Below are positions 8,687-31,875 of a stretch of 34,653 bases of DNA, piece after piece. The position numbers and the translations under genes are program-made. The DNA comes from a virus. Within the stretch, counting starts at the first letter, position 1; every line of letters starts with the position of its first letter. Below the pieces are notes generated by a model. It was not told the DNA's origin. It saw only the letters and a list, made by a program, of their open reading frames with translations, and searched no databases. The stretch is from positions 7,905-42,557 of IMG/VR virus record IMGVR_UViG_3300030107_002139; one strand, given 5' to 3'.

Positions 8687-9580
8687 TTATCTATCTCCTC
8701 TTAAAAAACTAATAGCGTCATCCAACAATACACTTGCTTTTTCTATAGGTGTTTTCATTTCTATTTCTTCTGGTTCATCAAACCTAGTAAGCCTATCTAA
8801 AGTATGTAAATACTTAGCAGCATGTTGTCCTGAAACTATTCTACCAGAATGTGGTAATATCTCTTCTCCTGTATATCTTCCTGTTTCTTGATTAATAACT
8901 CTACCATCTGGTGTTGATGAAGGCATAGGAACACCTCTGTCAGTATCTTCTTCTTCTTCTACAACTGTTGTAGGTTCACCAGGTTCTCCTATTTCTATGT
9001 CTTGTTCAACTGGAGGTGGAGTAGTTTCTACATTCATTTCACTTTCAATAAGCTGTTTAAACTCTTGTGCGTCAATATTACTTGGGTCATTAAACTTACT
9101 AACAGTTAAAGGATATAACAAATCTATAGCTACTAATTCATCTTCAGCACCTTCTTGTATTTTTTGTTCAACCATATATTTAAATACAAGCATTTGGTCA
9201 TCAACAGAAGCTGTCTCTTTAAACCAATCTACAACAACTGTTCTTTGTGTAGGTGTAAAATATCTTCTATCGCTTCCTGTTTCTGGAGCAATATTACTCA
9301 TTAATTGTTTATCTTGTTCTTTAGATACTCTAGGTATTTTTACTCCTAGTTCTACCATTGCTCTGTAAACAGCAGGAGCCATTGCATTTTTAGCAATATG
9401 TGCTTGTGCTATTCCCCAAGAATCTGATAATTCATCTTTGGCATTTCTAGTAAAAGCAACACCGTCTTCTCTTGATTCATAACCTAAGATAGGAACAACA
9501 TACTCTATTACTTCTTCTGCTATTCCTACGCTTTGTAATGCTTCAATAACTTCTTGCGTTGTGTATGATTCTGGTTCCAT
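8687..9580 (-). CDS. Lysozyme/transglycosylase-like virion protein
   Basis: A 297-aa protein. Residues about 22-62 resemble a soluble-lytic-transglycosylase/lysozyme-like core: a helix ending in GYES (Glu35 as the likely catalytic acid) followed by SDSWGIAQ (54-59), the usual S-x-G-I-x-Q pattern. Such domains cut peptidoglycan glycan strands, and in virions they open a local hole in the wall during DNA entry. After about residue 190 there is an acidic, Pro/Glu/Thr-rich linker (ETTPPPVEQDIEIGEPGEPTT). The gene overlaps the preceding one at the start codon and has an AAGGAA ribosome site. Only part of the lysozyme fold can be recognised, so this is a moderate call; a purely structural protein is the alternative. 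Confidence 0.6.
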   Translation of the reverse strand: MEPESYTTQEVIEALQSVGIAEEVIEYVVPILGYESREDGVAFTRNAKDELSDSWGIAQAHIAKNAMAPAVYRAMVELGVKIPRVSKEQDKQLMSNIAPETGSDRRYFTPTQRTVVVDWFKETASVDDQMLVFKYMVEQKIQEGAEDELVAIDLLYPLTVSKFNDPSNIDAQEFKQLIESEMNVETTPPPVEQDIEIGEPGEPTTVVEEEEDTDRGVPMPSSTPDGRVINQETGRYTGEEILPHSGRIVSGQHAAKYLHTLDRLTRFDEPEEIEMKTPIEKASVLLDDAISFLRGDR

Positions 9581-19630: not shown

Positions 19631-21553
19631 TTATCTCCATGTATCTATATCCATACTACTAGGTTCATAGTTTGAAAAGCTAGGGTTATAATCATGCCCT
19701 AGTTCTGCAAACCGTTCCTTTTGCATTCTTCTAATTGACCTCATAGGAAACCAACTAGCCATTACAATATCAGTTTTAGTACCTACAGATTTACTCTTAT
19801 TTCGAGCAGAACTGAAATACACTAACTGACTTGTATATAAGTTTACCTTTTCTTGAGCTTCAAGACTAAGATATGGCAAATTTATTTTCTTTTCTTGGAA
19901 CATAGGCCTTATAGCCGTCACACCAAAAATAGGGTCAAACTTTTGATTCCTAGTTTCATGTCCTTCCAAAAACACACCATGAGATGATGTAAACTCTCTA
20001 ATAGAAACATCCTGCCTAATAGCTTTTTGAAAACCGTTTTCTTCAATTACCCAGTGACTACAATTATATTTTTTCCACCAATCTTTAATAACTTCTAATG
20101 CTTGAGGTATTCCTCCGCCTAAAGAGTTGTTCATATCAATCATGTATAATTTTGAAGTTTCTACATCAAAACCCCAAAGAAATGCTGCTTGATACCCTGT
20201 AGAAGCAGGGTCTAATCCTGCAATAAGCCTTACTCCTCTAGGTATGTGACCAATATCTCTTTTTTGGTCTCGACATTCTTCTATCTCTTCTCGTTTAAAC
20301 AAAGCAAGTCCATCAGGCATAGCAACATTAAGATAAACCATTTCGTATATAGCTCTACCACCTGTAGTTTCTGCAGCTCTTTTTCTATCCATTAACCATC
20401 TATAAGTTCTTTTAGAACCCCACAACATACATTCTTCATGTTCGTTTTCATTCCAATCAGGTAAAGTACATGAAACATCATGTGCTTCTTCTACAATAGT
20501 TTTCCAAGATTCATTCTCTAAAAGATGTGAATATAAATCGTCATAGTGCTGTCTTGAACCAATAACTACCATAGCTGTATGTTCCTCTTTTCTTGATGAA
20601 AGAGTTGTAGTCCACCAGTTTCTTGTATTTTCTCTTGTTGATGGTTGCATAGTAGAACTGTGGTCTTCAATGTCATCTGCAATAATTATGTCACAGTCTC
20701 TTGATAGAATTTTACCACCTCTACCTATACCTACCATTGTTGGAGATTTAATACCAGTTACTGTTCGTGTACCTACAGTAAATCCACCTTGCGACCATGC
20801 CTTACCTGTTCTGCTAGTTGGTTTAAATTTAGGGCCTGGTCCACATATCTCTTCTATTAATAATTCATTATTTTCTAGTTGGTCAATAACTGAGTTAACT
20901 GCATTTTTAGATATGTCTTCGTTACCACCTACCCATAAAATTCTTATGTTAGGATTCTTGCATATAAGCCATATAACAAAATGAATTAACAAATCAGTTT
21001 TACCATGTCTAGGTGGAGACAATATCATTTGTTGTTCACCTTTTTCTATAGCTTCTAAAATTGAATTAATCCACTTGATATGAAATTCTGGTGTTTCGTA
21101 TGCTTCACCTGTTTCTGTTTGAAAATACCTATCTCTAAAATCAGAAAACTCTTCTAATGTTTTTTCAGCAACCTGCGGTAAAGACCATTTTTCTGCAGCT
21201 TCTTTTGTTTGTAGGTCTTCCATGTAAGCAGCAAAAGCCATTGAGACAGCCCCAACAGTTGTACCAAGTATTTCAGCAACACCAGATAAAGTATTCTTTT
21301 TGTTTTTAATTTCTTCTGCTAAACCAGATTCAACAATATCGTTATATACTTTTCCTCTTCTGGATTGAACATTTGTTTTTTGAGAAGGAATTTCTAATTT
21401 ATCATCTTCTTGTGTCCATTCAATTCCTGCTTTTTTTGCTCTCTTTTTTTGCATTGCAATTCTGTTAGCACATCTAGTACTACAAAATTTTGAACGACCT
21501 TTAGGTAATGGTCTGTGACATCCTCCTGCGTAACACAGTTTTTTTTCTTTCAT
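19631..21553 (-). CDS. terL: Terminase large subunit with N-terminal zinc finger and helix-turn-helix
   Basis: A 640-aa ATP-driven DNA packaging motor and nuclease. Residues 7-28 have Cys7, Cys12, Cys24 and Cys28, a probable zinc finger. Residues about 89-110 (LSGVAEILGTTVGAVSMAF) look like a helix-turn-helix. The ATPase follows: Walker A SPPRHGKTD with Gly184-Lys185-Thr186 and Walker B IIIADD with Asp293-Asp294. The nuclease domain begins with GLDPAST (Asp448), then HWVIEENGFQK and DIVMASWFP. No separate small terminase gene is seen nearby, so the N-terminal DNA-binding region may take over that job; this is inference. The ATG overlaps the stop codon of the thermonuclease gene. Confidence 0.9.
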   Translation of the reverse strand: MKEKKLCYAGGCHRPLPKGRSKFCSTRCANRIAMQKKRAKKAGIEWTQEDDKLEIPSQKTNVQSRRGKVYNDIVESGLAEEIKNKKNTLSGVAEILGTTVGAVSMAFAAYMEDLQTKEAAEKWSLPQVAEKTLEEFSDFRDRYFQTETGEAYETPEFHIKWINSILEAIEKGEQQMILSPPRHGKTDLLIHFVIWLICKNPNIRILWVGGNEDISKNAVNSVIDQLENNELLIEEICGPGPKFKPTSRTGKAWSQGGFTVGTRTVTGIKSPTMVGIGRGGKILSRDCDIIIADDIEDHSSTMQPSTRENTRNWWTTTLSSRKEEHTAMVVIGSRQHYDDLYSHLLENESWKTIVEEAHDVSCTLPDWNENEHEECMLWGSKRTYRWLMDRKRAAETTGGRAIYEMVYLNVAMPDGLALFKREEIEECRDQKRDIGHIPRGVRLIAGLDPASTGYQAAFLWGFDVETSKLYMIDMNNSLGGGIPQALEVIKDWWKKYNCSHWVIEENGFQKAIRQDVSIREFTSSHGVFLEGHETRNQKFDPIFGVTAIRPMFQEKKINLPYLSLEAQEKVNLYTSQLVYFSSARNKSKSVGTKTDIVMASWFPMRSIRRMQKERFAELGHDYNPSFSNYEPSSMDIDTWR

Positions 21554-22082: not shown

Positions 22083-22088
22083 TTTTTT

Positions 22089-22107
22089 ATCATACTAGAT
22101 GATTATA
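22089..22107 (-). promoter_or_regulatory. Promoter-like -10 elements for the leftward late operon
   Basis: On the minus strand there is a perfect TATAAT (22102-22107) and a TATGAT (22089-22094). The latter is 6 bases from the ATG at 22082, which would put transcription start at the start codon. No good -35 is visible. One of the two is probably the late promoter. Confidence 0.4.
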
Positions 22108-22116
22108 AAAAATCTT

Positions 22117-22260
22117 ACTCCGTGGAGCGGCAATCGTTAAGCAGAAAAAATGCCCTGACTAAGGTTGTGGCTAGTAGTAGGTGAGACTAATAAAGGAGTC
22201 AATTATGAGCTAATTGAACTATCTTTCCTAGCACAAGCCACTTCCTTTTGTCTACGGAGT
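22117..22260. ncRNA. Possible structured RNA: nested inverted repeats
   Basis: ACTCCGT (22117-22123) pairs with ACGGAGT (22254-22260). Inside, GTGGCT pairs with AGCCAC and CAATT with AATTG. Coding potential is absent. The transcribed strand is unclear; the minus-strand promoter-like element near 22380-22418 would transcribe through it. It could be an untranslated leader or a small RNA. Confidence 0.35.
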
Positions 22261-22379
22261 GCAAGTGCGAATTAAAAGTCTAAGACTTGAACCTACTTGC
22301 TCACCGTATCTATTTTCTTATTATTTAAAGAAAATGGTGTCAGTTCTTTTGTAGAAGTACTAACACTTTCAATATACAT

Positions 22380-22418
22380 ATACTCGAGTTATAAGTAGTA
22401 AAAAAATAATTTTTTTTT
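22380..22418 (-). promoter_or_regulatory. Duplicated element A: ATACTCGAGTTATA plus A/T tract
   Basis: A 14-base identity with 22654-22667 containing the palindrome ACTCGAGT. Both copies are followed on the plus strand by a long A run and then a T run. On the minus strand each copy reads as A/T tract, then TATAAC, a possible -10 with an UP-like upstream region. Bent DNA or a protein-binding repeat is the alternative. Confidence 0.45.
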
Positions 22419-22427
22419 AGAAAAACA

Positions 22428-22449
22428 AAAGCGGCATTCCTGCCGCTTT
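22428..22449 (-). terminator. Rho-independent terminator (minus strand)
   Basis: A perfect 9-bp GC-rich stem (AAAGCGGCA / TGCCGCTTT) with a TTCC loop. On the minus strand it is followed by TGTTTTT. It would end a leftward transcript about 200 bases long starting near duplicated element B. On the plus strand only three T follow, so it acts mainly leftward. Confidence 0.75.
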
Positions 22450-22650
22450 CTATACATTCCCTTAGTGGTTGGCCCCACTATCCGTCTGCATTCGGTGTTA
22501 CTTCCTAGCTTACACATTGCAATCTAAAAGTCACTCACAAAGCCAACAACTTGTGCCTCGGTCAAAATTGGTTTATCAACCATTCTCAATCCTTTGTACA
22601 AAGCTACTCAGCGTTTATTCTACCGCTTAAAATGTACTTCTATAAATATA
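22450..22650 (-). ncRNA. Candidate leftward small transcript between element B and the terminator
   Basis: This is bounded by the promoter-like element at 22654-22693 and the terminator at 22428-22449. Its only notable reading frame is a 19-codon ORF (MVDKPILTEAQVVGFVSDF) preceded by AAAGGA 7 bases upstream, so it may be a small RNA with or without a peptide. The evidence is the arrangement only. Confidence 0.35.
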
Positions 22651-22653
22651 TAC

Positions 22654-22693
22654 ATACTCGAGTTATAGCTGGTGTAAAAAAAATTTTTTTTTT
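22654..22693 (-). promoter_or_regulatory. Duplicated element B: ATACTCGAGTTATA plus A/T tract
   Basis: The second copy of the 14-base sequence seen at 22380, again followed by an A run and a T run of about ten bases each. As in copy A, the minus strand offers TATAAC downstream of the tract. Confidence 0.45.
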
Positions 22694-22869
22694 GAGAATC
22701 TTGTCTAGGTAGGGGTAGCTGTTGCCAGTCACCCCTAAAGAAAAGTTATGGTACTCCGAAGAGTTTACAAAGGGCTGTAAAACTTTCCTTCTCCTAGTAC
22801 AAACAAACAAACAATCCTGGAGGACTGTATGAAAATGGGTTGAACCCATCATCCTTAATATTAACATAC

Positions 22870-22941
22870 TATATTTATATAGGGGTCTTATTTGTGAGAG
22901 TTTCCTCCTTTCGCTCACACCCTGTCAAGGCCCCCATTTTT
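22870..22941 (+). ncRNA. Candidate small RNA with an anti-Shine-Dalgarno loop and terminator
   Basis: A TATATT -10 (22870-22875) would start transcription near G22882. GGGGTCTT (22882-22889) pairs with AAGGCCCC (22927-22934), followed by ATTTTT, forming a terminator-like closing stem. Inside, GTGAG (22894-22898) pairs with CTCAC (22914-22918), and the 15-base loop contains CCTCCTTTC (22904-22912), the same as the anti-Shine-Dalgarno 3' end of many bacterial 16S rRNAs. The RNA could bind ribosome sites of mRNAs. Expression is unproven. Confidence 0.45.
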
Positions 22942-23184
22942 CTAAAATTTTGTCTTAGTATATTTGTATGCTAGGCTACAAGAAGAAACAAATATTTATA
23001 CCTAGTAAGGACAAACAGGTAAAGAGGACATCAGGCGTACAAAAGCTACTGATACTTAGAGTATAAAGGCGAAACACAAAGGTAGTACCCAAGAAGTTCA
23101 GGAAGAGTATAAATCAAGCCTAACCTGCATTAATAGCCTGTTATATACAAAAAGACTCCCTCTCAAAAGAAAGTATATAATACA

Positions 23185-23285
23185 TACTATATATAGTAGG
23201 TACAGGGTACTTAACTATATGTTGTACCACTACATGTAGTACCCCTTTAACAGCATATCTTTAAGGGATTAACAACGAAGTTGTT
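23185..23285. repeat. Cluster of palindromes, possible origin or control site
   Basis: TACTATATATAGTA (23185-23198) and ACTACATGTAGT (23229-23240) are perfect palindromes. GGGTACT (23205-23211) pairs with AGTACCC (23238-23244), GGTAC (23199-23203) with GTACC (23224-23228), and AACAAC with GTTGTT (23271-23285). Five inverted repeats in about 100 bases of noncoding DNA is unusual. Replication origin or regulator binding are both possible. Confidence 0.5.
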
Positions 23286-23526
23286 GGCCCCTCACATTTA
23301 ACCCTACCCATATTTAATCATGGTTTAAACAAGTATTAATTACCTTTCATTACTTAAGAATCTGTAGAAATATAAGCCTACCTACTACCAAATAAATACA
23401 TTATGAAAACATATGTACCTTTTTTTAAATTCTTCTGGGGAGGTATACGAGGTTTAAACTCCTAAACAATAAACTAAAGAACTTCAACCAATAAAGACTG
23501 GGAAAAAAAATAAAAAGAAATACCCT

Positions 23527-23551
23527 GTTTAAACTAAATATGTGTTAGGCT
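23527..23551 (+). promoter_or_regulatory. Early promoter with extended -10 and GTTTAAAC operator-like site
   Basis: The extended -10 TGTTAGGCT (23543-23551) lies about 36 bases before the first early gene. GTTTAAAC (23527-23534) occupies the space between -35 and -10. The layout is nearly repeated at 25413-25435, which supports a real promoter family. Confidence 0.6.
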
Positions 23552-23586
23552 TGTATTACAAAACAAGCAAGATTGGAGAAATCAAA

Positions 23587-23919
23587 ATGACTAAAGCATA
23601 TAAAGTAACTAGAACAATGACTCAGGAATTTATTTCCTTCGGCAAAAATAAGCAGGAGGCAATAGAAAATTCCTACAACTATGACTATATAGACATGAAA
23701 TTCTTAGCTACAGAAAGCATGGCTCAGGGTGATATAAAAGGAGGAAGTTCTAAAGCTCAGGTTATAAATGATGTTGTAATTATTAAAGCAGATTACAGAG
23801 AAATGGATGATATTACAGAACTTGTTGAGAAAGGTGCAAACATTCTCATAGAAGACTGGGAAGGTAACTTAAAGACTTTAGAAAACTTTAAGAAAGCAAA
23901 CAACATAGAAGAGGAGTAA
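23587..23919 (+). CDS. Early protein, 110 aa, unknown function
   Basis: The frame is open from 23542, but TTGGAGAA 7 bases before the ATG at 23587 fixes the start (MTKAYKVTRTMTQEF). The product is acidic and soluble, with an alternating strand/helix look and an acidic C-terminus (NNIEEE). It is the first gene after the early promoter, a position often used for host-takeover proteins, but no motif is recognised. Two small hairpins (23928-23951 and 23955-23967) follow the stop codon. Confidence 0.75.
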   Translation: MTKAYKVTRTMTQEFISFGKNKQEAIENSYNYDYIDMKFLATESMAQGDIKGGSSKAQVINDVVIIKADYREMDDITELVEKGANILIEDWEGNLKTLENFKKANNIEEE

Positions 23920-23927
23920 ATCTCTCG

Positions 23928-23967
23928 GAAGATATTCAAAAGGGTATCTTCTAGGAGCTTTAAGCTC
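23928..23967 (+). repeat. Two intercistronic hairpins
   Basis: GAAGATA (23928-23934) pairs with TATCTTC (23945-23951), and GAGCT with AGCTC follows at once. There is no T-run, so they may be mRNA-processing or attenuation elements between the first two early genes. Confidence 0.4.
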
Positions 23968-23997
23968 AACAAACAAACAATGGAAATGGAGAAGAAA

Positions 23998-24903
23998 ATG
24001 ATACAAACTAAGGAAAAGATTCAGCCGCAGCTCCCAGCAAAAACTGGGTTAAGTTGGCCGAATGTTAACTGGATAATTGAAGACATTGAAAAGAATGTAG
24101 GAAAATCAGAAAAGAAAGCAGAAAAATATCTTGAAGATTTTGCTAAGTTCTGCATAGATTATGCAGTTGCATCTGGTATAGGAACAGCTGAGAATCTAGG
24201 AGCAGGAGTTCAGATTCATATTTCAGATACTATTGGTAGAAAAAGAGTTACTAACAATAAATCTGGAAATCATGCAATCGGAATTTGTTATCCTAAAAGC
24301 TGGTCAGAAGGTCAAGCAAGAGTAATAGAAGTAGATAGAACTTTAAAAGATACTTTAAGAGTTCTTGATGTTGTAGCCCATGAAGTATGTCATGCAGTTC
24401 TCCCAGAGACTACAGGGCATTATGGGAAATTTGTTACTCTTACTAAGAAGGTGTTTAAACTGGGAGGAATACCTACTGCTACACTTCCTACTCCTGATTT
24501 TTTGATGCTAATTAAAGGTTGGCTTGAAAATAATGGAACTTATCCGCATGTTGCTTATAATGACCATTCACAAAAACAAACTACAAGAATGATTAAATTG
24601 GCTTGTAATAATTCTTTTTGTGCAGGGTCAACTGATGCGAGTAAAAAGCAAGACCTAGGAACTATATTCAGAATGTCATCTGTGATTGTTTTGAATAATT
24701 CAGAACTACAGAGAGATGAATATGGAGAAGTTATTCAGAAAGATGTCTCTATTTACGATAAGAATGGAGAGATTAAGGGAGATTATAAATATATAGATTA
24801 TTATAAAACATCTATAACCTGCCCAGTCTGTCAAGGGCCGAGCAGCGTATGGTCTCAATTACCAGTAAACCATGATACAGGAGCAACTTATCTATATCAG
24901 TAG
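23998..24903 (+). CDS. SprT-like zinc metalloprotease
   Basis: A 301-aa protein from the ATG at 23998, chosen because GGAGAAG lies 6 bases upstream; ATGs at 23980 and 23986 are possible but have no ribosome site. Residues 128-132 form HEVCH, the HExxH zinc site, with GHYGKF (His141) as the third ligand, the layout of SprT/Spartan-like proteases. A C-terminal zinc ribbon follows, with Cys203, Cys208, Cys275 and Cys278 (CPVC). The known family degrades DNA-bound proteins or acts as a nucleoprotein factor; the phage target is unknown. It lies in the early module between small unknown genes. The following hairpin at 24912-24936 carries a GTTTAAAC site at its apex. Confidence 0.8.
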   Translation: MIQTKEKIQPQLPAKTGLSWPNVNWIIEDIEKNVGKSEKKAEKYLEDFAKFCIDYAVASGIGTAENLGAGVQIHISDTIGRKRVTNNKSGNHAIGICYPKSWSEGQARVIEVDRTLKDTLRVLDVVAHEVCHAVLPETTGHYGKFVTLTKKVFKLGGIPTATLPTPDFLMLIKGWLENNGTYPHVAYNDHSQKQTTRMIKLACNNSFCAGSTDASKKQDLGTIFRMSSVIVLNNSELQRDEYGEVIQKDVSIYDKNGEIKGDYKYIDYYKTSITCPVCQGPSSVWSQLPVNHDTGATYLYQ

Positions 24904-24911
24904 ATATTATA

Positions 24912-24936
24912 GAGGTCTTGTTTAAACCGAGACCTC
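24912..24936 (+). terminator. Hairpin with GTTTAAAC at its apex
   Basis: GAGGTCT (24912-24918) pairs with AGACCTC (24930-24936), and GTTTAAAC (24920-24927) forms the top, giving an almost continuous stem. It begins 8 bases after the protease stop codon. The downstream sequence AATAATATTT is not a strict T-run, so it is a terminator or an RNA/DNA-binding site. Confidence 0.55.
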
Positions 24937-24988
24937 AATAATATTTATAAAAGTTATAAATATTAAAAGTACTAGGAGGTACAAACAA

Positions 24989-25399
24989 ATGAAAGATAAA
25001 TATGAAAATAAATTAGAGGAGCAAATCGATTGGCTAACTGAAAGAGAGTCAGTCGAGTATGCAAAAGAACTTGCTGACTTATGTTCTACTCTATTGGCTA
25101 GAGCTAACATGATAAAAACTAAAATTAGTAATGAAAAAATGTTAGGCAAACACCCATTAACTAGAAAAGAATCTAAAGAATGGTTTGCAGGAGAAATCGT
25201 AAGCGATGTTACAATCTCAGGATTTGGAGCATTTAAAAGTGTTTCAACTGCTCAGGCCAGAGTTGACGCTCTTGCGGATATGATGCAATATATCGATTGG
25301 TATATGTACACCGAAGGGCAAGACAATCTTAAAATAAAATTTGAGATTAAGGAAACTATAAGCACTATAAGTAAGAACTTAAAGAAAGAAAAAGTATAA
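24989..25399 (+). CDS. Early protein, 136 aa, helical, unknown function
   Basis: An ATG with AGGAGG 10 bases upstream, separated by the AC-rich spacer TACAAACAA. The N-terminal half is helical and charged (for example LEEQIDWLTERESVEYAKELADL). The middle contains VTISGFGAFKSVSTAQARVDALADMMQYIDWYM, and the C-terminus is lysine-rich. There is no membrane segment. The family is not recognised. It has its own intercistronic region, so it may be independently transcribed; a TATAAAT at about 24953 is a possible -10. Confidence 0.7.
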   Translation: MKDKYENKLEEQIDWLTERESVEYAKELADLCSTLLARANMIKTKISNEKMLGKHPLTRKESKEWFAGEIVSDVTISGFGAFKSVSTAQARVDALADMMQYIDWYMYTEGQDNLKIKFEIKETISTISKNLKKEKV

Positions 25400-25403
25400 T
25401 TAA

Positions 25404-25442
25404 TTACCCTAGTTTAATACAATATGTGTTAAGCTAGGGTAA
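25404..25442 (+). promoter_or_regulatory. Promoter within a 9-bp perfect inverted repeat
   Basis: TTACCCTAG (25404-25412) and CTAGGGTAA (25434-25442) enclose the extended -10 TGTTAAGCT (25427-25435). The sequence before it, GTTTAATAC, corresponds in position to the GTTTAAAC of the 23527 promoter. The repeat would cover the -35 to +1 region, as expected for an operator, or could act as a hairpin if transcribed from upstream. Confidence 0.55.
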
Positions 25443-25463
25443 CAAACAAACAAGGAGAAAACA

Positions 25464-25814
25464 ATGGCGATAATCGAAACCGAACACCTGAATCAAACTC
25501 AGTTTATCGGTAAATTTACAAGCCGCTCAGAGATGATTGCAGAGCAATTTTCAGTAAGGGCCTTAGAATGTCTCTATCTTTACCTAGAAGAGATGACTGA
25601 CTCAACAGGTGAAGATATTGAGCTTGATGTTGTTGCAATCTGTGTTGAATGGGCAGAATATGATTCACTAGAGGAATGTCTAGCTGATTATTCTAAAACA
25701 TTTACAAAAGATATGTATGGCTACGATGAGAAAACAACAATAGAAAAGTTAAGAGAACATACAACAGTATTAGAAATAGAGGATAGCAAAGGAATTGTTA
25801 TCAAACAATTCTAG
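25464..25814 (+). CDS. Early protein, 116 aa, conserved-looking phage protein of unknown function
   Basis: The ATG has AAGGAG 7 bases upstream after an ACAAACAAACAA leader. The core (LECLYLYLEEMTDSTG, then DIELDVVAICVEWAEYDSLEECL) resembles small acidic proteins I recall from many tailed phages, whose function is not established. The protein is acidic and soluble. It is driven by its own promoter-like element (25404-25442) and is followed by a GTTTAAAC site 6 bases after the stop codon and a strong hairpin, making it a separate transcription unit. Confidence 0.75.
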   Translation: MAIIETEHLNQTQFIGKFTSRSEMIAEQFSVRALECLYLYLEEMTDSTGEDIELDVVAICVEWAEYDSLEECLADYSKTFTKDMYGYDEKTTIEKLREHTTVLEIEDSKGIVIKQF

Positions 25815-25820
25815 CACCCT

Positions 25821-25868
25821 GTTTAAACCGACACCTGTAAATTATATTTATGGGTGTCAGGTTTTAAT
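25821..25868 (+). terminator. GTTTAAAC site followed by a long terminator hairpin
   Basis: GTTTAAAC (25821-25828) is followed by GACACC (25830-25835), inner TAAAT/ATTTA and GGTGTC (25853-25858). With two wobble pairs this makes a continuous 13-bp stem with a TAT loop. The sequence AGGTTTTAATT follows. It should end the transcript of the 116-aa gene. Confidence 0.7.
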
Positions 25869-25876
25869 TACAGATA

Positions 25877-25885
25877 TGTTATAGT
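25877..25885 (+). promoter_or_regulatory. Extended -10 promoter-like element
   Basis: TGTTATAGT, preceded by ATA as in the promoters at 23540 and 25424, directly after a terminator and about 24 bases before the start of a string of tiny genes. Confidence 0.5.
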
Positions 25886-25908
25886 TGATTTACAAGGAGG
25901 AATAAACA

Positions 25909-26070
25909 ATGAAAGATGCTAAGCAAGAAAGGTTAATAAGAAATATTCAAAATAAATTGGATATGACTAAAAGTGATAATGAGCGTAGAATTAGAAAATT
26001 TAAAGCTCAATGTAAATTGCAAGAAAGCTACCTGGAAGAAATTTTAGAGTTAGCTAAAATTGGTAATTAA
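25909..26070 (+). CDS. Tiny early protein, 53 aa, basic and helical
   Basis: The ATG has a strong AAGGAGG site 9 bases upstream. The product (MKDAKQERLIRNIQNKLDMT...) is highly charged and looks like a single coiled coil, ending in an acidic helix. It is the first of six closely spaced small genes that all use a GAGGAATAAATA-type ribosome site. Function unknown. Confidence 0.65.
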   Translation: MKDAKQERLIRNIQNKLDMTKSDNERRIRKFKAQCKLQESYLEEILELAKIGN

Positions 26071-26084
26071 GAGAGGAATAAATA

Positions 26085-26231
26085 ATGGCTAAAGAATATC
26101 GTACAGTAAAAGTTCATACAGAGGAATTGCAAGAGATATTAGGTGCAAAGTCATTTGTAGTAGAAATAGAACGAGAAGTGTCAGTTGTTGTTAATGCTGA
26201 TAGTAAAGAACAAGCAGAAGAAAAGGAATAA
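26085..26231 (+). CDS. Tiny early protein, 48 aa
   Basis: The ATG follows AGAGGAATAAATA. The product (MAKEYRTVKVHTEELQEILG...) has alternating hydrophobic and charged residues and an acidic tail, with no known motif. It is 14 bases after the previous stop and 3 bases before the next start, so it is part of a co-translated string. Confidence 0.65.
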   Translation: MAKEYRTVKVHTEELQEILGAKSFVVEIEREVSVVVNADSKEQAEEKE

Positions 26232-26234
26232 ATA

Positions 26235-26348
26235 ATGAGCTTACAAATAATTTATGATGAGATAAAAAAATTGGATAGAAAACTAAATTCAATTCAAGTT
26301 GAATTAGTAAAACAAAGATTAGAGGAAAAAAAAGAGAGGAATAAATAA
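26235..26348 (+). CDS. Tiny early protein, 37 aa, coiled coil
   Basis: The ATG is preceded by AAAGGAATAAATA. The whole product (MSLQIIYDEIKKLDRKLNSI...) reads as one amphipathic coiled coil. Its stop codon abuts the ATG of the next gene. Function unknown; a partner-binding or oligomerising peptide is plausible. Confidence 0.6.
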   Translation: MSLQIIYDEIKKLDRKLNSIQVELVKQRLEEKKERNK

Positions 26349-26459
26349 ATGCTTAAAGTAAGAAATATTTTATTACAAAAAATATATTCAAAAAAATATA
26401 GGACATTTTTAGATAAGTTATTTATTAAATTATTTTTATGGATAGAGGAGAAAGAATAA
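26349..26459 (+). CDS. Tiny early protein, 36 aa, basic
   Basis: The ATG directly follows the previous stop, with GAGAGGAATAAATA before it. The product (MLKVRNILLQKIYSKKYRTF...) is strongly basic and hydrophobic, possibly membrane- or RNA-associated. It overlaps the next ORF by one base (TAATG). Function unknown. Confidence 0.55.
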   Translation: MLKVRNILLQKIYSKKYRTFLDKLFIKLFLWIEEKE

Positions 26460-26530
26460 TGGAGGTAATACTTCAGTACATAATTTTAATAATGCTAGGA
26501 ATGACTTTAGGAGGTCTCATTGCTAAATAA
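26459..26530 (+). CDS. Tiny membrane peptide, 23 aa
   Basis: The ORF overlaps the preceding stop (TAATG) and has GAGGAGAAAG just upstream. Almost the whole product (MEVILQYIILIMLGMTLGGL) is a single hydrophobic helix. It overlaps the next gene's TTG start. It is short, so the call rests on the ribosome site and gene packing. Confidence 0.45.
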   Translation: MEVILQYIILIMLGMTLGGLIAK

Positions 26531-26801
26531 ATTTTTAATATCAATAGGTTTTAAGGTGGACGAGATGACCTGCGGAGGAGATTATCATGCTTGGGATTCT
26601 CCAACCGATTATGGCGTTATATGTTTACGCTGCTACAAACAACCAGCAGAGGTTGATTGGGAACACGAATTAAAAATAGTACCTCGGTTTAAACAAGGAG
26701 TCGAAGATTTTATAAACTATATAACATTTGGAAAGTATTCATTTTATAGAAGAATCTATAAAGAAAATAAATTAAGGAAGGGGCAGGAGAAACCATTTTA
26801 A
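26520..26801 (+). CDS. Small protein, 93 aa, possible zinc-binding, TTG start
   Basis: The TTG at 26520 has AGGAGG 5 bases upstream, which favours it over the later ATG. The region CGGDYHAWDSPTDYGVICLRC holds Cys, His and C-x2-C, a possible zinc site. The C-terminus is basic (KENKLRKGQEK). A GTTTAAAC site lies inside (26697-26704) in the context TCGGTTTAAACAAGG. Function unknown. Confidence 0.65.
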   Translation: MLNKFLISIGFKVDEMTCGGDYHAWDSPTDYGVICLRCYKQPAEVDWEHELKIVPRFKQGVEDFINYITFGKYSFYRRIYKENKLRKGQEKPF

Positions 26802-26917
26802 ATTTAAGCATTTAGAATAGAGTCGGAAGAGAACTCCGAACAAGGTTACTTTCATTGGCCTGATTTGAACACTACTTGCTCCTCAATTTTAGAAAAGTTT
26901 TCTCCTATATAGATAAT

Positions 26918-27184
26918 ATGATGAAGTGTGAAAAATGTGAAGGCGGCTACCTACATGTGTTAATAGCTATTGAGCAAAACTTTCCATATACTTTATGCTC
27001 TAAGCATAGAAATTTTAAACCAACTAAATTGTTTACATTCTTACATACAACTTATTTCACTTATTGGAGTGTGCCTAAACAATACAAAAGAATATATGGA
27101 GATTCATATAAACAAGCATTGCAAAGATATTTTAGATTTAAGGGTTGGCAAATGGCTAACCATAGGGGGCCATATTATAAATAA
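26918..27184 (+). CDS. Small protein with Cys motif, about 88 aa
   Basis: The frame is open from a TTG at 26876. The ATGs at 26918/26921 start just before MKCEKCEGGYL, but neither has a good ribosome site, so the start is uncertain. The product has C-x2-C near the start and CSKHRNF later, a possible zinc site, then an aromatic, basic C-terminal half. Three stop codons in a row (TAA TGA TAG) end it, and a GTTTAAAC site lies 8 bases downstream. Function unknown. Confidence 0.55.
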   Translation: MMKCEKCEGGYLHVLIAIEQNFPYTLCSKHRNFKPTKLFTFLHTTYFTYWSVPKQYKRIYGDSYKQALQRYFRFKGWQMANHRGPYYK

Positions 27185-27190
27185 TGATAG

Positions 27191-27313
27191 CGGTTTAAAC
27201 AAGAAGACGACATTCCGTATTTTCCCTGTGTGCGTAGTGGTTATTGCTGTAAACAAGCTCCTTGCGTATATGGAGGTTGGAATAAAGTTAAAAAAGATAC
27301 CAACTTAATGTAA
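27191..27313 (+). pseudogene. Cys-cluster ORF without a start codon (YkgJ-like zinc/iron-binding motif)
   Basis: The frame following the triple stop encodes about 40 residues including FPCVRSGYCCKQAPCVYGGW. This C-x3-G-x-CC-x3-PC-x-YG pattern is that of the YkgJ-like zinc/iron-chelating family, whose phage members are usually longer with a further Cys after this block. Here there is no ATG, GTG or TTG before the motif; only an ATT (IPYFPC) or a +1 frameshift from the ATG at 27184 through GTTTAAA could start it. It ends early at 27311. It is therefore either a degraded gene or a gene with unusual initiation. Confidence 0.5.
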
Positions 27314-27318
27314 TGTTG

Positions 27319-27327
27319 TGGTAACAT
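27319..27327 (+). promoter_or_regulatory. Extended -10 promoter-like element
   Basis: TGGTAACAT, an extended -10 of the same type as those at 23543, 25427 and 25877, located 28 bases before the ATG of the 51-aa gene. Confidence 0.4.
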
Positions 27328-27355
27328 GAAAGGGTAACTTTACATAGGAGAATCT

Positions 27356-27511
27356 ATGAAGTACATGGTAACGAGTCTTTCTGTTTATGGTGGACAGATG
27401 ACTTGGGAATTTGACAATAAAGATGATGCGTTGAAAAAAGTTAGGGAGCTTAAAGACAACGATATGAAGTCATCTTTTATTGTAAAAATTACTGAGTACG
27501 AAACAGTATAA
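27356..27511 (+). CDS. Small early protein, 51 aa
   Basis: The ATG has AGGAGA 5 bases upstream. The product (MKYMVTSLSVYGGQMTWEFD...) reads as strand-strand-helix-strand, ending IVKITEYETV, and is soluble. The family is not recognised. It probably starts a new transcription unit behind the promoter-like element at 27319. Confidence 0.65.
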   Translation: MKYMVTSLSVYGGQMTWEFDNKDDALKKVRELKDNDMKSSFIVKITEYETV

Positions 27512-27544
27512 GTAAACGAACAAACGAATACAAGGAGGAATAAA

Positions 27545-27760
27545 TTGCAAGTATATATATTAATAGGGCTAGTGTTTGCGTGGATTGTATCAGGTCTTAT
27601 GGCCGATAACTATGCGTTGCGTAAACATTTAAAGGAGTATAAGAGATTAGAGCAAATCGATTTAGATAGATACAATTTTGTTGTTGGGATATTAAATCAA
27701 AAACAACAGAAAGACTTGCACCAATACTATGTATTAACAGGTGCAATAAAGGAGGAATAA
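27545..27760 (+). CDS. Small membrane-anchored protein, 71 aa, TTG start
   Basis: The TTG at 27545 has AAGGAGG 7 bases upstream. Residues about 3-20 (VYILIGLVFAWIVSGLMA) form one membrane helix, followed by a charged helical domain predicted to face the cytoplasm. Its stop overlaps the next start (TAATG). Function unknown; the layout suits a small membrane regulator or inhibitor. Confidence 0.7.
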   Translation: MQVYILIGLVFAWIVSGLMADNYALRKHLKEYKRLEQIDLDRYNFVVGILNQKQQKDLHQYYVLTGAIKEE

Positions 27761-28002
27761 TGGCTAAGCCTATAGAGAAACCTAATATATTTAATGAGCC
27801 AAAACTTTTAAAGAAGTGGGCCATATCATTAGCGAATGCTTGTGGAGGACAAGAAGTGTCTCAGACCAGTATTAAGCTAAACCAAAAAAACATGCAAAAG
27901 ATGAACATTCTTATAGATGAATTTGTACTCTGCTATAACAATATGTTTCAAGCTATGCAGCAAGAAGAGACCAGTTTAAACAAGGAGGAGGAAGAAGAGT
28001 AA
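27760..28002 (+). CDS. Early protein, 80 aa, unknown function
   Basis: It overlaps both neighbours by one base and has AAAGGAGG upstream. The sequence is helical, with an acidic tail (NKEEEEE). A GTTTAAACAAGGAGG run near the end (27974 on) is both a palindrome copy and the ribosome site for the next gene. Not recognised. Confidence 0.7.
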   Translation: MAKPIEKPNIFNEPKLLKKWAISLANACGGQEVSQTSIKLNQKNMQKMNILIDEFVLCYNNMFQAMQQEETSLNKEEEEE

Positions 28003-28280
28003 TGACAATTAAACTAACACCTAAGCAAGAACAAAGGTTAAGTGAGAAATGTAATCATAAAGTTGTAGCGAAATTTGAAATTGATTTTAATTTTGATATT
28101 GGTCACTTGAATAATGAATTAATAGCAGAGTTTGTACAACAAGAATTACAAACTCTTTACACAAAAGAAAGTGTTATAAACGAACACTTTACAGAGGAAA
28201 ACTTTAAAGAACTTGTTGATTGGGAAGGTAATTATTGTGATGATTGTGAAGATGAATACCTTACAGAAGAGGAAGAATAA
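28002..28280 (+). CDS. Early acidic protein, 92 aa, possible zinc site
   Basis: AAGGAGGAGG precedes the ATG. The product has CNH near residue 17 and CDDC near the end (GNYCDDCEDEYLTEEEE), a possible zinc site, and an acidic tail. It is coupled by overlapping start/stop to both neighbours. Function unknown. Confidence 0.7.
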   Translation: MTIKLTPKQEQRLSEKCNHKVVAKFEIDFNFDIGHLNNELIAEFVQQELQTLYTKESVINEHFTEENFKELVDWEGNYCDDCEDEYLTEEEE

Positions 28281-28537
28281 TGATTCTAGGCTTATCAAAA
28301 CCTAAAGATGAATGGACTATGCTCTTTACTCCTAGGTGTATTCATTGTAAAACTACAGGAGAAGTGCGTGTTAAGAAGAAAGATGCAACTACTTGGAAGT
28401 ACACATCAAGGTATATAAGGCCGCTTGTTCAAGACTTGTTTCCTTATATAGATAAAGATTACAGAGAACAAATAATGACAGGGATTCACCCTAGATGTTT
28501 CTATGAAATGTTTGGAGATGAAGAAGATGATGACTAA
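28280..28537 (+). CDS. Early protein, 85 aa, zinc-finger-like
   Basis: C-x2-C (PRCIHCKTTG) near residue 20 and GIHPRCFYEMFG at the end. This arrangement resembles small proteins of unknown function that I recall from actinobacterial phages. The middle is helical (IRPLVQDLFPYIDKDYREQI). The tail is acidic. It is coupled to the next gene by TAATG. A nucleic-acid or protein-binding role is possible. Confidence 0.7.
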   Translation: MILGLSKPKDEWTMLFTPRCIHCKTTGEVRVKKKDATTWKYTSRYIRPLVQDLFPYIDKDYREQIMTGIHPRCFYEMFGDEEDDD

Positions 28538-28677
28538 TGGCTATTAAACAATATTGGATTCGGTTTAAACCGATAGAGTTTAAAACTAATAAAGAATTAG
28601 TAATTGATTTACTGACAGAAGAAAGAATTAAAGAACTTAGAAAACAGATAGAGGAAAGAGAGGAAGATAATGGGTAA
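28537..28677 (+). CDS. Tiny early protein, 46 aa, carrying a 14-bp palindrome
   Basis: The ATG overlaps the preceding stop. The product (MAIKQYWIRFKPIEFKTNKE...) ends in a charged helix. The codons for IRFKPI include TCGGTTTAAACCGA (28560-28573), a perfect 14-bp palindrome and the best copy of the GTTTAAAC family. The ORF overlaps the next gene by 8 bases. Function unknown. Confidence 0.6.
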   Translation: MAIKQYWIRFKPIEFKTNKELVIDLLTEERIKELRKQIEEREEDNG

Positions 28678-28897
28678 ATTTTTTGACAAAGATTATTACA
28701 CAAAACAACTTCTAAACATTAGAGAAAATATAGATGTAAAAGAACAAGAGGTTTCTTTTTTAAGAAAAAGAAGAACAAAAATAGTAGGTCAAGCATACGC
28801 AGGAGGCATGTCTGCTATAGAATTAGGAAGAATATTAGGCATGAGTAGGCAAAGTGTTTATGCTTTAATAAACAAACAAGGAGAGAATAATGGATAA
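28670..28897 (+). CDS. Small helix-turn-helix DNA-binding protein, 75 aa
   Basis: Residues 1-40 are a charged helix. Residues 47-68 (MSAIELGRILGMSRQSVYAL) are a typical helix-turn-helix of the resolvase/HTH_23 type, with a Gly turn and Ser-Arg-Gln at the recognition helix. No enzymatic domain is attached. GAGAGGAAG gives a ribosome site. It is the only obvious sequence-specific DNA-binding protein in the early module, so it is a candidate for recognising the GTTTAAAC sites; that link is conjecture. It overlaps the next gene by 8 bases. Confidence 0.75.
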   Translation: MGKFFDKDYYTKQLLNIRENIDVKEQEVSFLRKRRTKIVGQAYAGGMSAIELGRILGMSRQSVYALINKQGENNG

Positions 28898-29891
28898 GGC
28901 AACCAAAACAAAAGCGTGGAAGGAATTAACTAAACCTTTTGCTAAGAGTGTAATTAAAAAAAACCCTAAAGGTTTTGGAGATTATGTTCCTCATCACATA
29001 TACACAAGAAGACTTGTTGATAGTGGACTATTAAAAAGTTTTGATACAGTAGAAGTGATACGAGGAGCTGAAGGACATGTTATATCAGCAAGATGTACAT
29101 TAGTTGTAGATTCTCCTGAAGGAGAGAAAACAGTTACTTCATGTGGAGATGTAGAGCCTTCGGCTATTAACATGTTTAAGAATGGTAAGAAGTCTGAAGG
29201 CGAACTTATTAAAGATGCTGAGTCAGACGCACTTAAAAGATGTTGCATGAGACTAGGTATTGGTCTTCATATGTGGGAGCAGGATATGAGCGAGGAAGAA
29301 TATAGTGCATCTGTATCTGTAGATAATAAACCAAAACCTAAACCTGAAGTTAAGGTAGAGAAAAAACCTCCAGCTAAAATATCTAAAGAAGAACAAGAAA
29401 AAATGGAAGAGACAGTTGAAGAAATGGTCTCTGATAAAAGCAGCAATGTAAAGAAGGAATTGAATCTTGCTTTAAAACAATTTATTGCTAACGATGAGGA
29501 AAGAAGTAAGGTCATGAATGAAATCTACAAGAAAGTAGTTGATGAGCAGAACTTTCCTACCAGTTTAAACGACTGGTCTGATGACCAAAAAGATTCTTTT
29601 ATAGATATTGTTGAAATAAAAGTAAAAGCTAAAGAAAAGCTAGAAGAAACTAAGGAACTGGTTGAAGAAACTTTTGGCGAAGTAAAAGATAATACTAGGA
29701 ACTGCCCTGAATGTGGTAAGCCAGACTTTATAGAAGATAATAGACAAAAGAAAAAGGACGGTACTCCAGAAGACCCTAAGAAGTTTGCAAGTATTCCGTC
29801 TTGGTCTTGTAATGATTACCCTGCAGGTGGTAAACATGGTTGCGGTTGGGTAGCTTGGGGAGATACAGACTGCCCTACAGAATGGCTTTAG
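28890..29891 (+). CDS. Rad52-like single-strand annealing protein with C-terminal zinc ribbon
   Basis: A 333-aa protein. The N-terminal 130 residues include KDAESDALKRCCMRLGIGL (109-127), the signature of the Rad52/Sak-type annealing superfamily, followed by HMW. These proteins anneal complementary single strands in phage recombination and replication. A long charged linker (about 140-265) is followed by a likely zinc ribbon with Cys272, Cys275, Cys307 and Cys318. AAGGAG precedes the ATG. A nuclease gene lies two genes downstream, as expected for a recombination pair. The exact subfamily (Rad52 against DUF1071-like) cannot be settled by eye. Confidence 0.75.
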   Translation: MDKATKTKAWKELTKPFAKSVIKKNPKGFGDYVPHHIYTRRLVDSGLLKSFDTVEVIRGAEGHVISARCTLVVDSPEGEKTVTSCGDVEPSAINMFKNGKKSEGELIKDAESDALKRCCMRLGIGLHMWEQDMSEEEYSASVSVDNKPKPKPEVKVEKKPPAKISKEEQEKMEETVEEMVSDKSSNVKKELNLALKQFIANDEERSKVMNEIYKKVVDEQNFPTSLNDWSDDQKDSFIDIVEIKVKAKEKLEETKELVEETFGEVKDNTRNCPECGKPDFIEDNRQKKKDGTPEDPKKFASIPSWSCNDYPAGGKHGCGWVAWGDTDCPTEWL

Positions 29892-30184
29892 AGCCAATAG
29901 GTAACTCTTTTGCGGTAGAAAAATTAAAAGAGAAATTAAAAAAAAGATTTCCTGAACATAATTTTGATATTAAAGCAGAGCCAGATAGAAAGCATAAGCT
30001 ACCTACTGAATGTGGAAGTAATAAGATTACCTATTATGACAACAAAGGTAATGTATTTTGTGGCCAACGATATAAAAAAATACATGAAGACAACCCATAC
30101 TCATGGGAATGGGCTACCTGCAACGCATTAATTAGAGAAGGTAAGCCTAAGTTTAAACAAGAAGTATTGGAAGAGCCATTTTAA
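29882..30184 (+). CDS. Small protein, 100 aa, between recombination genes
   Basis: The frame opens at 29840, but MALEPIGNSF at 29882, overlapping the end of the annealing gene by 10 bases, is the likelier start. The product is basic and holds CGSNKITYYDNKGNVFCGQRY and WATCNALIREG, with scattered Cys. A GTTTAAAC site lies near its 3' end (30151-30158). It overlaps the nuclease gene by TAATG, implying a shared recombination or replication role. Family unknown. Confidence 0.65.
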   Translation: MALEPIGNSFAVEKLKEKLKKRFPEHNFDIKAEPDRKHKLPTECGSNKITYYDNKGNVFCGQRYKKIHEDNPYSWEWATCNALIREGKPKFKQEVLEEPF

Positions 30185-30654
30185 TGAAACATACAGATAG
30201 TTTTAAAGATAGAAATAAAGGCAGCGATATGGCGGAAGATACCATGCAGCAGTATTTAGAGGACAGGGGTTTGGTTGAATTTCATGACTGGTTAAAGATA
30301 GGAACAGACCCTAAAGAAAGTAAGCTACCCTTATTCTGGTTTATTACTAATGTCTTATTAATACCAGACTACGCTGTTGTATCAAAAGGTTATATCTATT
30401 TAATAGAAGTAAAGGGAACATTAAAGCTAAAAGAATCAGACTACATGAAGATACAAGAGATAGCTAAAAGAGCAAAGAAATATTCAAAGGTTAAGGTTGG
30501 TATTTATTATTTTGCACATCCTAATGCTGTACCAGTATATTACTCTGCAAGAAAATTAAAAGAATTATGGGTCTCTGGAGATTTAGAAGAAGGTATCTAC
30601 GAAGAAAAAGATTTCGAAGGCAAACCTAAAATGTATAGAATACTTCCTGTTTAA
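30184..30654 (+). CDS. PD-(D/E)XK nuclease
   Basis: A 156-aa protein with the core motif IPDYAV ... YLIEVKG: Asp62, Glu75 and Lys77 as metal and catalytic residues, and a helix with Glu18 before them. This matches RecB-like or resolvase-like PD-(D/E)XK nucleases, which cut DNA; single-domain phage versions often act in recombination or replication. It partners with the annealing protein two genes upstream. Its stop codon (TAA at 30652-30654) is inside a GTTTAAAC palindrome shared with the convergent gene. A later ATG (residue 16) is also possible. Confidence 0.75.
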   Translation: MKHTDSFKDRNKGSDMAEDTMQQYLEDRGLVEFHDWLKIGTDPKESKLPLFWFITNVLLIPDYAVVSKGYIYLIEVKGTLKLKESDYMKIQEIAKRAKKYSKVKVGIYYFAHPNAVPVYYSARKLKELWVSGDLEEGIYEEKDFEGKPKMYRILPV

Positions 30655-30656
30655 AC
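30649..30656. promoter_or_regulatory. GTTTAAAC palindrome containing both stop codons of convergent genes
   Basis: The plus-strand nuclease ends GTT TAA and the minus-strand phosphoesterase also ends GTT TAA within the same eight bases. The two coding regions overlap by 4 bases, and there is no separate terminator. Confidence 0.85.
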
Positions 30657-31835
30657 CAGCTTGTAGTTATCCCAACCCTTATCATTTACAGTTAAAGTAG
30701 TAACAGATGGATGAGACCATAGACCTGTTCTTTCAGTAAAATCTATACTTTTATCCAAAGAACTTGTCTGAAACCACGACCTATCTCCTTGTTGCTTAAA
30801 TCGAGGATGGTGGTAATGTGCAGTTATTAATATCTCTGCCTCACCTACAGGCAACCAACCATACATTTGACCCTTCCACCAGTTTTCTATTTTTACTTCT
30901 GGATTACTACCTCCACCGCCTGTCATGTGGCCATGAGTAAATGCAACAGTCTTACCTTTAATATCTAACACCTGATGAAAACCTTTAGGAACTTTTACTT
31001 CTACTTTTCCATACCTTTTAGGATTAGCTTTCATTATTTCACCACAAATCTCTATGTGCATAGTATCTGAATTATCGAGGCGAGATGTACTGACTTGGCC
31101 CTTGCTTGTTCTTGACATTTCTCCATGATTTCCTGGCACTCCACTTAATGTTAGGGATGGAGAATATGGAAGGAAGGTATCTATTGTTTTCATTATCATT
31201 GCCCTAGCTAGAGCATATTGCTCCATCAGGTTTAAGGAAACATTGTGAGGTTGAGATTCGTAAAAATGTGGAGTACAGTTTTCTGTAAGGTCACCTAATC
31301 CTACCATGTATATCTCATCAATTTTTACACCAACTTTTTTAAGAAACTTTAAATGATTAATACCATCAGCTAATGCTTGGTCATATCTTTTGATAGTATT
31401 CTCAACTCCCCAATCTTTTTTGCCCAACTGCCAGTCACTCATCAACCATAGAAAAGCTGTATCTCCTGCATCGTATTGTTTTACAATAGGTGCTTTTTTC
31501 TTTGCTTGTTTAAATAACTCGTTTACATACTTATCATGTCCAGGAATTTTCTGTTGAACTATACCTTTAAAAGCATAGAAAGTTTCTACTTGACCACCTT
31601 TAAGCTGTGTATTCCAAGATGATGCACGAACAGTTCCTACGATTTCGTATTTCTTTGGGTCGAATCCCCATTCTTTAAGTATTTCATCATACTTACTCTG
31701 ATAGTCTGGGTCAGTACCTACATGTGTAAGCTCACCCATACCAGTTTGTTTATTAATATCGTACCCAGGCTGCCAACCAGATTTGTAGAAATTATTACCT
31801 AGTTGTTCACCAGTATACTTTTTCTTCTTAGGCAT
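30651..31835 (-). CDS. Calcineurin-like metallophosphoesterase
   Basis: A 394-aa protein with the metallophosphoesterase motifs in order: SDWQLG (Asp134, in place of DxH), GLGDLTEN (Gly181-Asp182), GVPGNHGE (Asn236-His237), FTHGHMTGGG (His301, His303) and ITAHYHHP (His340, His342). These bind two metals and cleave phosphoesters; phage relatives are usually annotated as DNA exonuclease-like or phosphatase. The first motif has Gln where His is usual. It lies downstream of the holin on the minus strand, separated by a GTTTAAAC site, and converges with the early operon. Confidence 0.8.
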   Translation of the reverse strand: MPKKKKYTGEQLGNNFYKSGWQPGYDINKQTGMGELTHVGTDPDYQSKYDEILKEWGFDPKKYEIVGTVRASSWNTQLKGGQVETFYAFKGIVQQKIPGHDKYVNELFKQAKKKAPIVKQYDAGDTAFLWLMSDWQLGKKDWGVENTIKRYDQALADGINHLKFLKKVGVKIDEIYMVGLGDLTENCTPHFYESQPHNVSLNLMEQYALARAMIMKTIDTFLPYSPSLTLSGVPGNHGEMSRTSKGQVSTSRLDNSDTMHIEICGEIMKANPKRYGKVEVKVPKGFHQVLDIKGKTVAFTHGHMTGGGGSNPEVKIENWWKGQMYGWLPVGEAEILITAHYHHPRFKQQGDRSWFQTSSLDKSIDFTERTGLWSHPSVTTLTVNDKGWDNYKLV

Positions 31836-31867
31836 AAACGCCTCCTTTAGCCCTGTTGAAGGCCCTC

Positions 31868-31875
31868 GTTTAAAC
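31868..31875. promoter_or_regulatory. GTTTAAAC palindrome between holin and phosphoesterase genes
   Basis: It lies 8 bases after the holin stop codon (minus strand) and 33 bases before the phosphoesterase start. It is the rightmost copy of the family. Confidence 0.55.

Follow-up and report, generated by a model that had tools for sequence, protein, structure and literature searches.

An 8-bp palindrome dispersed over phage and plasmid DNA accompanies a gene for a SprT-like metalloprotease, its putative reader

The stretch of DNA analysed here, referred to as the window, comprises 34,653 nucleotides (bases 7905-42557) of a 42,557-bp IMG/VR virus record from an aquatic phage (IMGVR_UViG_3300030107_002139; 34% GC). 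The genes it carries are typical of a tailed phage, with terminase and major head protein genes on the minus strand and an early block on the plus strand that encodes an annealing protein and small open reading frames (ORFs). Exact copies of the 8-bp palindrome GTTTAAAC are scattered over the window and crowd into this early block. At 23980-24903, on the plus strand, lies a gene for a 307-residue SprT-like HExxH metalloprotease (phrog_6361, E 4e-11; weak Pfam SprT-like match), which we propose as the reader of the sites. The HEVCH catalytic zinc motif is encoded at 24379-24393 (+), and a KQTTR basic arm with a cysteine ribbon, the putative DNA-reading module, at 24574-24831 (+). Gene and site occur together on plasmids and in numerous phages not related to one another, and from the sequence comparisons set out below a link between the SprT-like family and GTTTAAAC, or a second form of the site, GTGTAAAC, is very probable.

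The window holds 20 exact copies of GTTTAAAC, 14 of them within 23323-31875, which agrees with the counts in an earlier note made on this DNA from its letters alone (about 20, with 14 in 8.5 kb). There are none in the 7,904 bases of the record that precede the window. GTTTAAAC is the top over-represented 8-mer of the window. Dinucleotide shuffling gave a mean of 1.14 copies (standard deviation 1.00, maximum 4 in 100 shuffles) and Markov models of order 0-5 predict 1.3, 1.3, 1.2, 1.8, 2.0 and 3.6, so that the k-mer models which the note had proposed as a check do not explain the count; the order-6 expectation of 8.9 is inflated by the palindrome's own sub-words.

Three sites stand ahead of the early operon, at 23323-23330 (in a stretch without a clear gene), 23452-23459 and 23527-23534, the last shortly upstream of the first early ORF, which starts at 23542. 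The SprT-like gene contains one site (24453-24460, where it codes for V-F-K-L) and is followed by another, 16 bp past its stop codon (24920-24927). The site at 25821-25828 is 6 bp past a stop codon, those at 27974-27981 and 30151-30158 lie at gene 3' ends, and that at 30649-30656 overlaps the stop codon between convergent genes. Of the rest of the early sites, 26687-26694 is coding, 27193-27200 is intergenic in the gene set used, 28563-28570 is the core of a 14-bp palindrome, 29563-29570 is within the annealing-protein gene and 31868-31875 is 32 bp upstream of the phrog_284 gene on the minus strand. The six remaining copies are at 2347-2354 (intergenic), 7273-7280 and 8296-8303 (both within the gene for a 1219-residue protein), 9055-9062 (coding), 16997-17004 (within the gene for a 2078-residue protein) and 20293-20300 (within the terminase gene). 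The recurring flanks and the longer palindrome are as the note described them: TCGGTTTAAACAAG is found at 26684-26697 (the note's 26697 is its end) and as its complement at 24917-24930, GCGGTTTAAACAAG at 27190-27203 and the palindrome TCGGTTTAAACCGA at 28560-28573. Across the window's family A is preferred at the first two outward positions, giving TTGTTTAAACAA. The core itself is exact, with 146 copies of GTTTAAAC in seven site-rich loci compared with at most 13 of any one-base neighbour.

The phrog_284 gene (30651-31835) served to collect relatives of the window, of which the best 80 of 346 were taken; together these hold 280 copies of GTTTAAAC against 24 expected. The trait is bimodal, with 3-29 copies in 23 of the 80 and 0-1 in the other 57. 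Among longer records there are 27-34 sites in G001, G002, G003 and G007, and 0-2 in the nine records G012-G020; no replacement short word was seen in the site-poor relatives. When the ORFs of these records were compared, homologues of the SprT-like gene were present in 9 of 12 site-rich records and in none of seven site-poor ones. The gene is missing from three site-rich records, namely G009, G010 and G005, the last being a fragment of 12 kb. One of the nine that have it, G008, holds 44 sites, though it is otherwise a different phage (59 kb, 43% GC). A 51-residue ORF and a 310-residue protein were likewise absent from the site-poor records, each being present in only 6 of the 12 site-rich ones. 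The note's test of whether the sites are maintained in related phages does not refute a site system: they are kept in relatives with the SprT-like gene, though relatives without the gene lack them. The note had put forward the window's 75-residue helix-turn-helix (HTH) protein (28670-28897) as the reader, for which its HTH_28 match and its position in the early block would speak. However, its homologues are found in four of seven site-less relatives and in only three of the other 11 site-rich records, and it is not common to other site-bearing genomes; with the SprT-like gene tracking the sites instead, we consider this assignment extremely improbable. As a separate observation, the loci L064, L078 and L080 contain CCACCACC repeats in very high number.

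To look beyond this family, IMG/VR loci were fetched by the profile of the SprT-like protein alone (the best 80 of 586 confirmed relatives), a scan with the single sequence having given no match. Of these 80 loci, 77 are enriched in GTTTAAAC or GTGTAAAC at P<1e-3. The others are L364 and L365, with one site each on a short locus, and L388, with three sites where 0.20 are expected. As a control all 8-mers were put through the same procedure: the number of loci that pass is 73 for GTTTAAAC, up to 69 for words that overlap it, 5 for GTGTAAAC and 4 for the next palindrome, TGCTAGCA. In a tblastn search, relatives of the protein of phage Pan1 turned up in 163 records of phages and 70 of plasmids. 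Twenty-six named records (24 phages and 2 plasmids) were then picked by hand across hosts and both protein types, with expectations from an order-2 Markov model. Copies of GTTTAAAC found and expected were 16 and 0.02 in Pan1, 20 and 0.02 in R26L, 34 and 1.7 in Venkman, 7 and 0.09 in Mica, 4 and 0.14 in Mano, 6 and 0.68 in Bas97, 6 and 0.71 in PT1, 7 and 1.0 in Arya, and 2 and 0.04 in Pseudomonas F_TK1718sp/PAK; on the plasmids they were 18 and 0.40 (MGMAQ_p) and 5 and 0.03 (pUT1). GTGTAAAC is the form found in the actinophages tested and a few others, with 42 copies against 0.05 expected in Stuff, 22 against 0.08 in Zeta1847, 20 against 0.08 in Yang and 16 against 0.02 in GardenState, and counts of 14 in Percival, 41 in JackieB and 26 in DrManhattan; the Azeevirinae counts are those of Yang and DrManhattan, not Powerpuff. 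No sites beyond a single copy were found in Bordetella FP1 and CN2, Pseudomonas Epa5 and Psa21-HRN, or Microbacterium Franklin22, AvGardian, Eden and Bernstein.

The SprT-like family is the sole protein family present in all 20 of 20 site-bearing records compared, two plasmids among them; the next family that is not an antisense shadow of the SprT-like gene reaches 8 of the 20. Other shared-gene clusters (13/20 and 11/20) run antisense to the gene and were rejected as its shadows. The range of the system takes in phages of Proteobacteria, of a cyanobacterium and of actinobacteria, as well as plasmids, some of them conjugative. On the Sphingobium plasmid pUT1 the SprT-like relative (L454:2174-2806) is beside genes for an AAA-family ATPase and for replication.

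A host-encoded protein, or mutation or restriction in the host, could likewise leave short exact palindromes strewn through coding DNA. HIP1 of cyanobacteria, an 8-bp palindrome scattered over the coding DNA of the chromosome, is such a case, and GTTTAAAC resembles it in form but tracks one mobile-element gene. Close relatives differ sharply in their sites with the presence of one phage gene, and the same site, in one or other of its two forms, goes with hosts as different as Streptomyces, E. coli and Pseudanabaena. In 118 stretches of bacterial or archaeal contigs picked by a 14-mer there were 41 sites beyond the one in each against 24 expected, which speaks against strong enrichment across host genomes. 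A host origin of the sites is therefore very improbable.

Within the SprT-like family the sites depend on the C-terminal module. All 18 of the named records whose protein has a C-terminal [K/P]KQx[T/I]R arm and ribbon have sites, and none of the eight without the module does. In those eight proteins the arm position reads KPAQPKGWFLVKLVS, RGQAQGGWVRMFS or KSRSGKSIKL, and the ribbon is also degraded in most. They fall into two separate supported clades of four in a tree of 71 proteins, which argues for two losses of the module rather than eight. Together with the co-occurrence, this double loss makes direct reading of the site by arm and ribbon the simplest explanation. Residues Q200, T202, R203, K206, C209, C281 and C284 are invariant in alignment A2, and the H, E and H of HExxH in alignments A1, A2 and A4. 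The form of the site shifts over a short evolutionary distance: the protein of locus L361 is 75% identical to that of Pan1, and its record has 11 copies of GTGTAAAC and one of GTTTAAAC, compared with none and 16 in Pan1. No position in the protein cleanly separates GTTTAAAC users from GTGTAAAC users.

The protein is currently annotated either as a SprT-like protease or as a transcription elongation protein, and phrog_6361 is listed as of unknown function. The Pfam SprT-like match is at or below the Pfam cutoff, and a sequence search of solved structures found Spartan at E 0.5 only. Structures were compared using an AlphaFold model of the L361 protein (predicted local distance difference test, pLDDT, 88.4). 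The model matches Spartan with a Z score of 8.2 over 97 residues (6MDX) and 8.1 (6MDW), and matches the archaeal minigluzincin-type metallopeptidase 4JIU just as well; Foldseek alone gave a weak result (E 0.1). The match covers the SprT part only, roughly residues 5-120, with the ribbon barely compared. Within that part the predicted structure is that of a SprT fold.

The sites are strongly conserved where the surrounding sequence has diverged. In pairwise alignments of 60-75% identity, a site was kept in 415 of 593 cases (70%) in the window's family and in 1460 of 1966 (74%) in the 80-locus set, although these pairs are not independent of one another. In the same alignments 8-mers in general were kept in 15% and 9% of cases, respectively, and other AT-rich palindromes in 10% and 1%. 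In Yang, GardenState, Pan1 and R26L, 27 of 59 sites are not wholly coding, compared with backgrounds of 4.6-8.5% (the count took in 47 of the 72 kb of Pan1 and 45 of the 79.5 kb of R26L). At the right end of GardenState (L360:41967-44080) there are four near-identical sequences of the form TTGCGC-N5-GTGTAAAC-N4-TANNCT, each with the site in the 17-bp spacer and standing ahead of small genes, which from their hexamers would appear to be promoters. Of 108 loci, 40 have a site in the 200 nt that precede the SprT-like start, where 14.2 are expected; in Mica, Arya, Bas97, PT1 and Mano a site is 15-20 bp away from the start as annotated. In G001-G003, G007, G008 and Venkman the sites are concentrated in a single region; in the window this region is the early block. 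GTGTAAAC has no consistent strand preference (6 plus and 14 minus in Yang, 10 and 6 in GardenState, 21 and 21 in Stuff). The Nanhaivirus phages Pan1 and R26L (L357 and L358) also carry a second dispersed repeat, ATAAGCGAGTTA/AACTCGCTTATA, which is strongly over-represented at 5-7 copies per ~45 kb, with one copy near the SprT-like gene, and is possibly a promoter element.

With sites placed as in promoters, crowded into the early region and present at the start of the SprT-like gene itself, the pattern suggests a repressor and roadblock under its own control. The sites would be the dispersed binding sites of one element-encoded protein, the SprT-like metalloprotease, whose KQxTR arm and zinc ribbon would read GTTTAAAC or, in a few members and in those tested from actinophages, GTGTAAAC; on the palindrome the protein would probably bind as a dimer. 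Made early, the protein may sit at promoters, at gene boundaries and inside genes, where it would block initiation and act as a roadblock to transcription over the early region. Its targets would often include its own gene, giving an autoregulated early shutoff, and in temperate members the whole would be a candidate immunity system, stoperator-like in its action. The conserved protease site might serve for self-cleavage, for example, or for stripping bound proteins to release silencing. According to PMC8758107, Cluster AZ phages include homoimmune lysogens for which there is no identifiable repressor, and the repressor missing from Cluster AZ/EH phages could be the SprT-like protein. This is the reading that we favour among those considered, although whether control of transcription, through the SprT-like protein, is the main function of the sites seems to us an evenly balanced question.

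Several observations weigh against this proposal. Just over half of the sites in the four phages above, 32 of 59, are within genes, and sites inside genes and even spacing are left unexplained by promoter control alone. The invariant catalytic HExxH would not be needed by a plain repressor. In 68 of the 108 loci the 200 nt ahead of the SprT-like gene are free of sites, so autoregulation is not universal, and Pan1 and R26L have no annotated integrase, so lysogeny is not the common purpose. The module-less groups represent only two evolutionary events, and because the counted loci and pairs are related their independence is overstated. G009 (57% GC, 30 kb) has 37 copies of GTTTAAAC against 0.11 expected and G010 has 15 in 50 kb, and neither record has the SprT-like gene or an ORF with KKQxTR; the completeness of these IMG/VR records is not established, and they may be fragments or have a different reader. 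Of the other site-rich loci that lack the gene, many are no more than short fragments.

Sites are spaced more evenly than expected by chance in Stuff, Yang, Pan1, R26L and MGMAQ_p (P at most 0.019), and also in G009 and the window's early region; they are not significantly so in Zeta1847, GardenState, PT1, Arya and Mica. Even spacing through coding DNA, together with the invariant HExxH and the Spartan-like fold, would fit a protease that is addressed by the sites. The zinc ribbon would anchor the metalloprotease on the element's own DNA, and the sites would mark self rather than act as operators, the targets being host proteins that load onto this DNA (silencers, restriction or SMC-type defence, or crosslinked proteins). 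Occurrence on both phages and plasmids is as expected of an anti-defence trait, and ArdC of plasmid R388, according to PMC7213743, binds DNA, has a metalloprotease domain resembling that of Spartan and acts against restriction. The same source has the antirestriction of ArdC independent of protease activity, however, and the bias towards promoter spacers and intergenic DNA and the clustering in the early region of several phages look regulatory, so that we hold a site-addressed protease to be a tentative alternative. A combination is about equally tentative, in which evenly spread 8-bp addresses recruit a sequence-specific SprT protease, guided by its zinc ribbon, that patrols mobile DNA and removes silencing or attacking host proteins from it, alongside self-control of early genes; this would be a self-marking system of a new class. 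Even spacing in several records and the presence of sites on plasmids might also point to a protein that bridges or condenses phage and plasmid DNA for replication, segregation or packaging, with the sites as regular anchors. This is unlikely given the strong early-region bias in the window's family, G008 and Venkman, and a protease fold would be unusual for such a task; moreover, on pUT1 the adjoining ATPase gene and a ribbon-helix-helix gene could provide partition.

Stoperators of Cluster A mycobacteriophages are asymmetric 13-bp sites, oriented with transcription and bound by the phage's HTH immunity repressor. Those of the L5 type are described in PMC3203893 as many short dispersed repressor-type sites that control transcription. 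The proposed operator and roadblock system resembles them in that one short site recurs many times, in part at promoters and at the borders of genes, but its site is a palindrome with a sharp 8-bp core, or GTGTAAAC without a consistent strand, and many copies are within genes. The linked gene, moreover, is predicted to encode a zinc metalloprotease and not an HTH repressor, and the system extends to plasmids and to phages that infect a wide range of bacterial groups. The operator or stoperator-like system that the earlier note supposed is thus borne out as far as the sites are dispersed, strongly maintained, placed like operators and tied to a gene of the element; the system is not specific to actinobacterial phages, being found in phages of Proteobacteria and a cyanobacterium and on plasmids too.

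Known SprT/Spartan proteases act on DNA-protein crosslinks and are not known to use a sequence-specific site. The protein described here is predicted to share with them (SPRTN) the SprT fold, HExxH and a C-terminal zinc-binding part, but its presence tracks an exact 8-bp site. It resembles ArdC in being a mobile-element protein with a Spartan-like metalloprotease domain and DNA binding, putative in our case. ArdC differs in binding single-stranded DNA non-specifically through an N-terminal domain, with no dispersed sites described in the accessible part of PMC7213743, whereas here the SprT part starts at model residues 4-11 and the extra module is C-terminal. Neither a link between SprT-like proteins and the site nor the site itself was found in the open-access literature searched, and as far as that literature goes the protein-site system is undescribed. 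The co-occurrence points to a control or self-marking system not described before and gives phrog_6361, a family of phages and plasmids, a candidate specific DNA partner across many host groups. If the protease is truly steered by sequence, it would represent a novel means of self-marking by mobile DNA.

Between the divergent gene blocks of the window there is a stretch of 1.46 kb without a clear gene (22083-23541). Rfam (2.1 kb scanned) and tRNA scans that included it gave no match, and a sigma-70 scan 5' of the early operon gave fewer matches than in shuffled sequences. The site that follows the SprT-like gene is located in the loop of a GAGGTCT/AGACCTC stem (24909-24936), and 3' of the site at 25821 there is a GACACC/GGGTGTC stem followed by a T-rich stretch.

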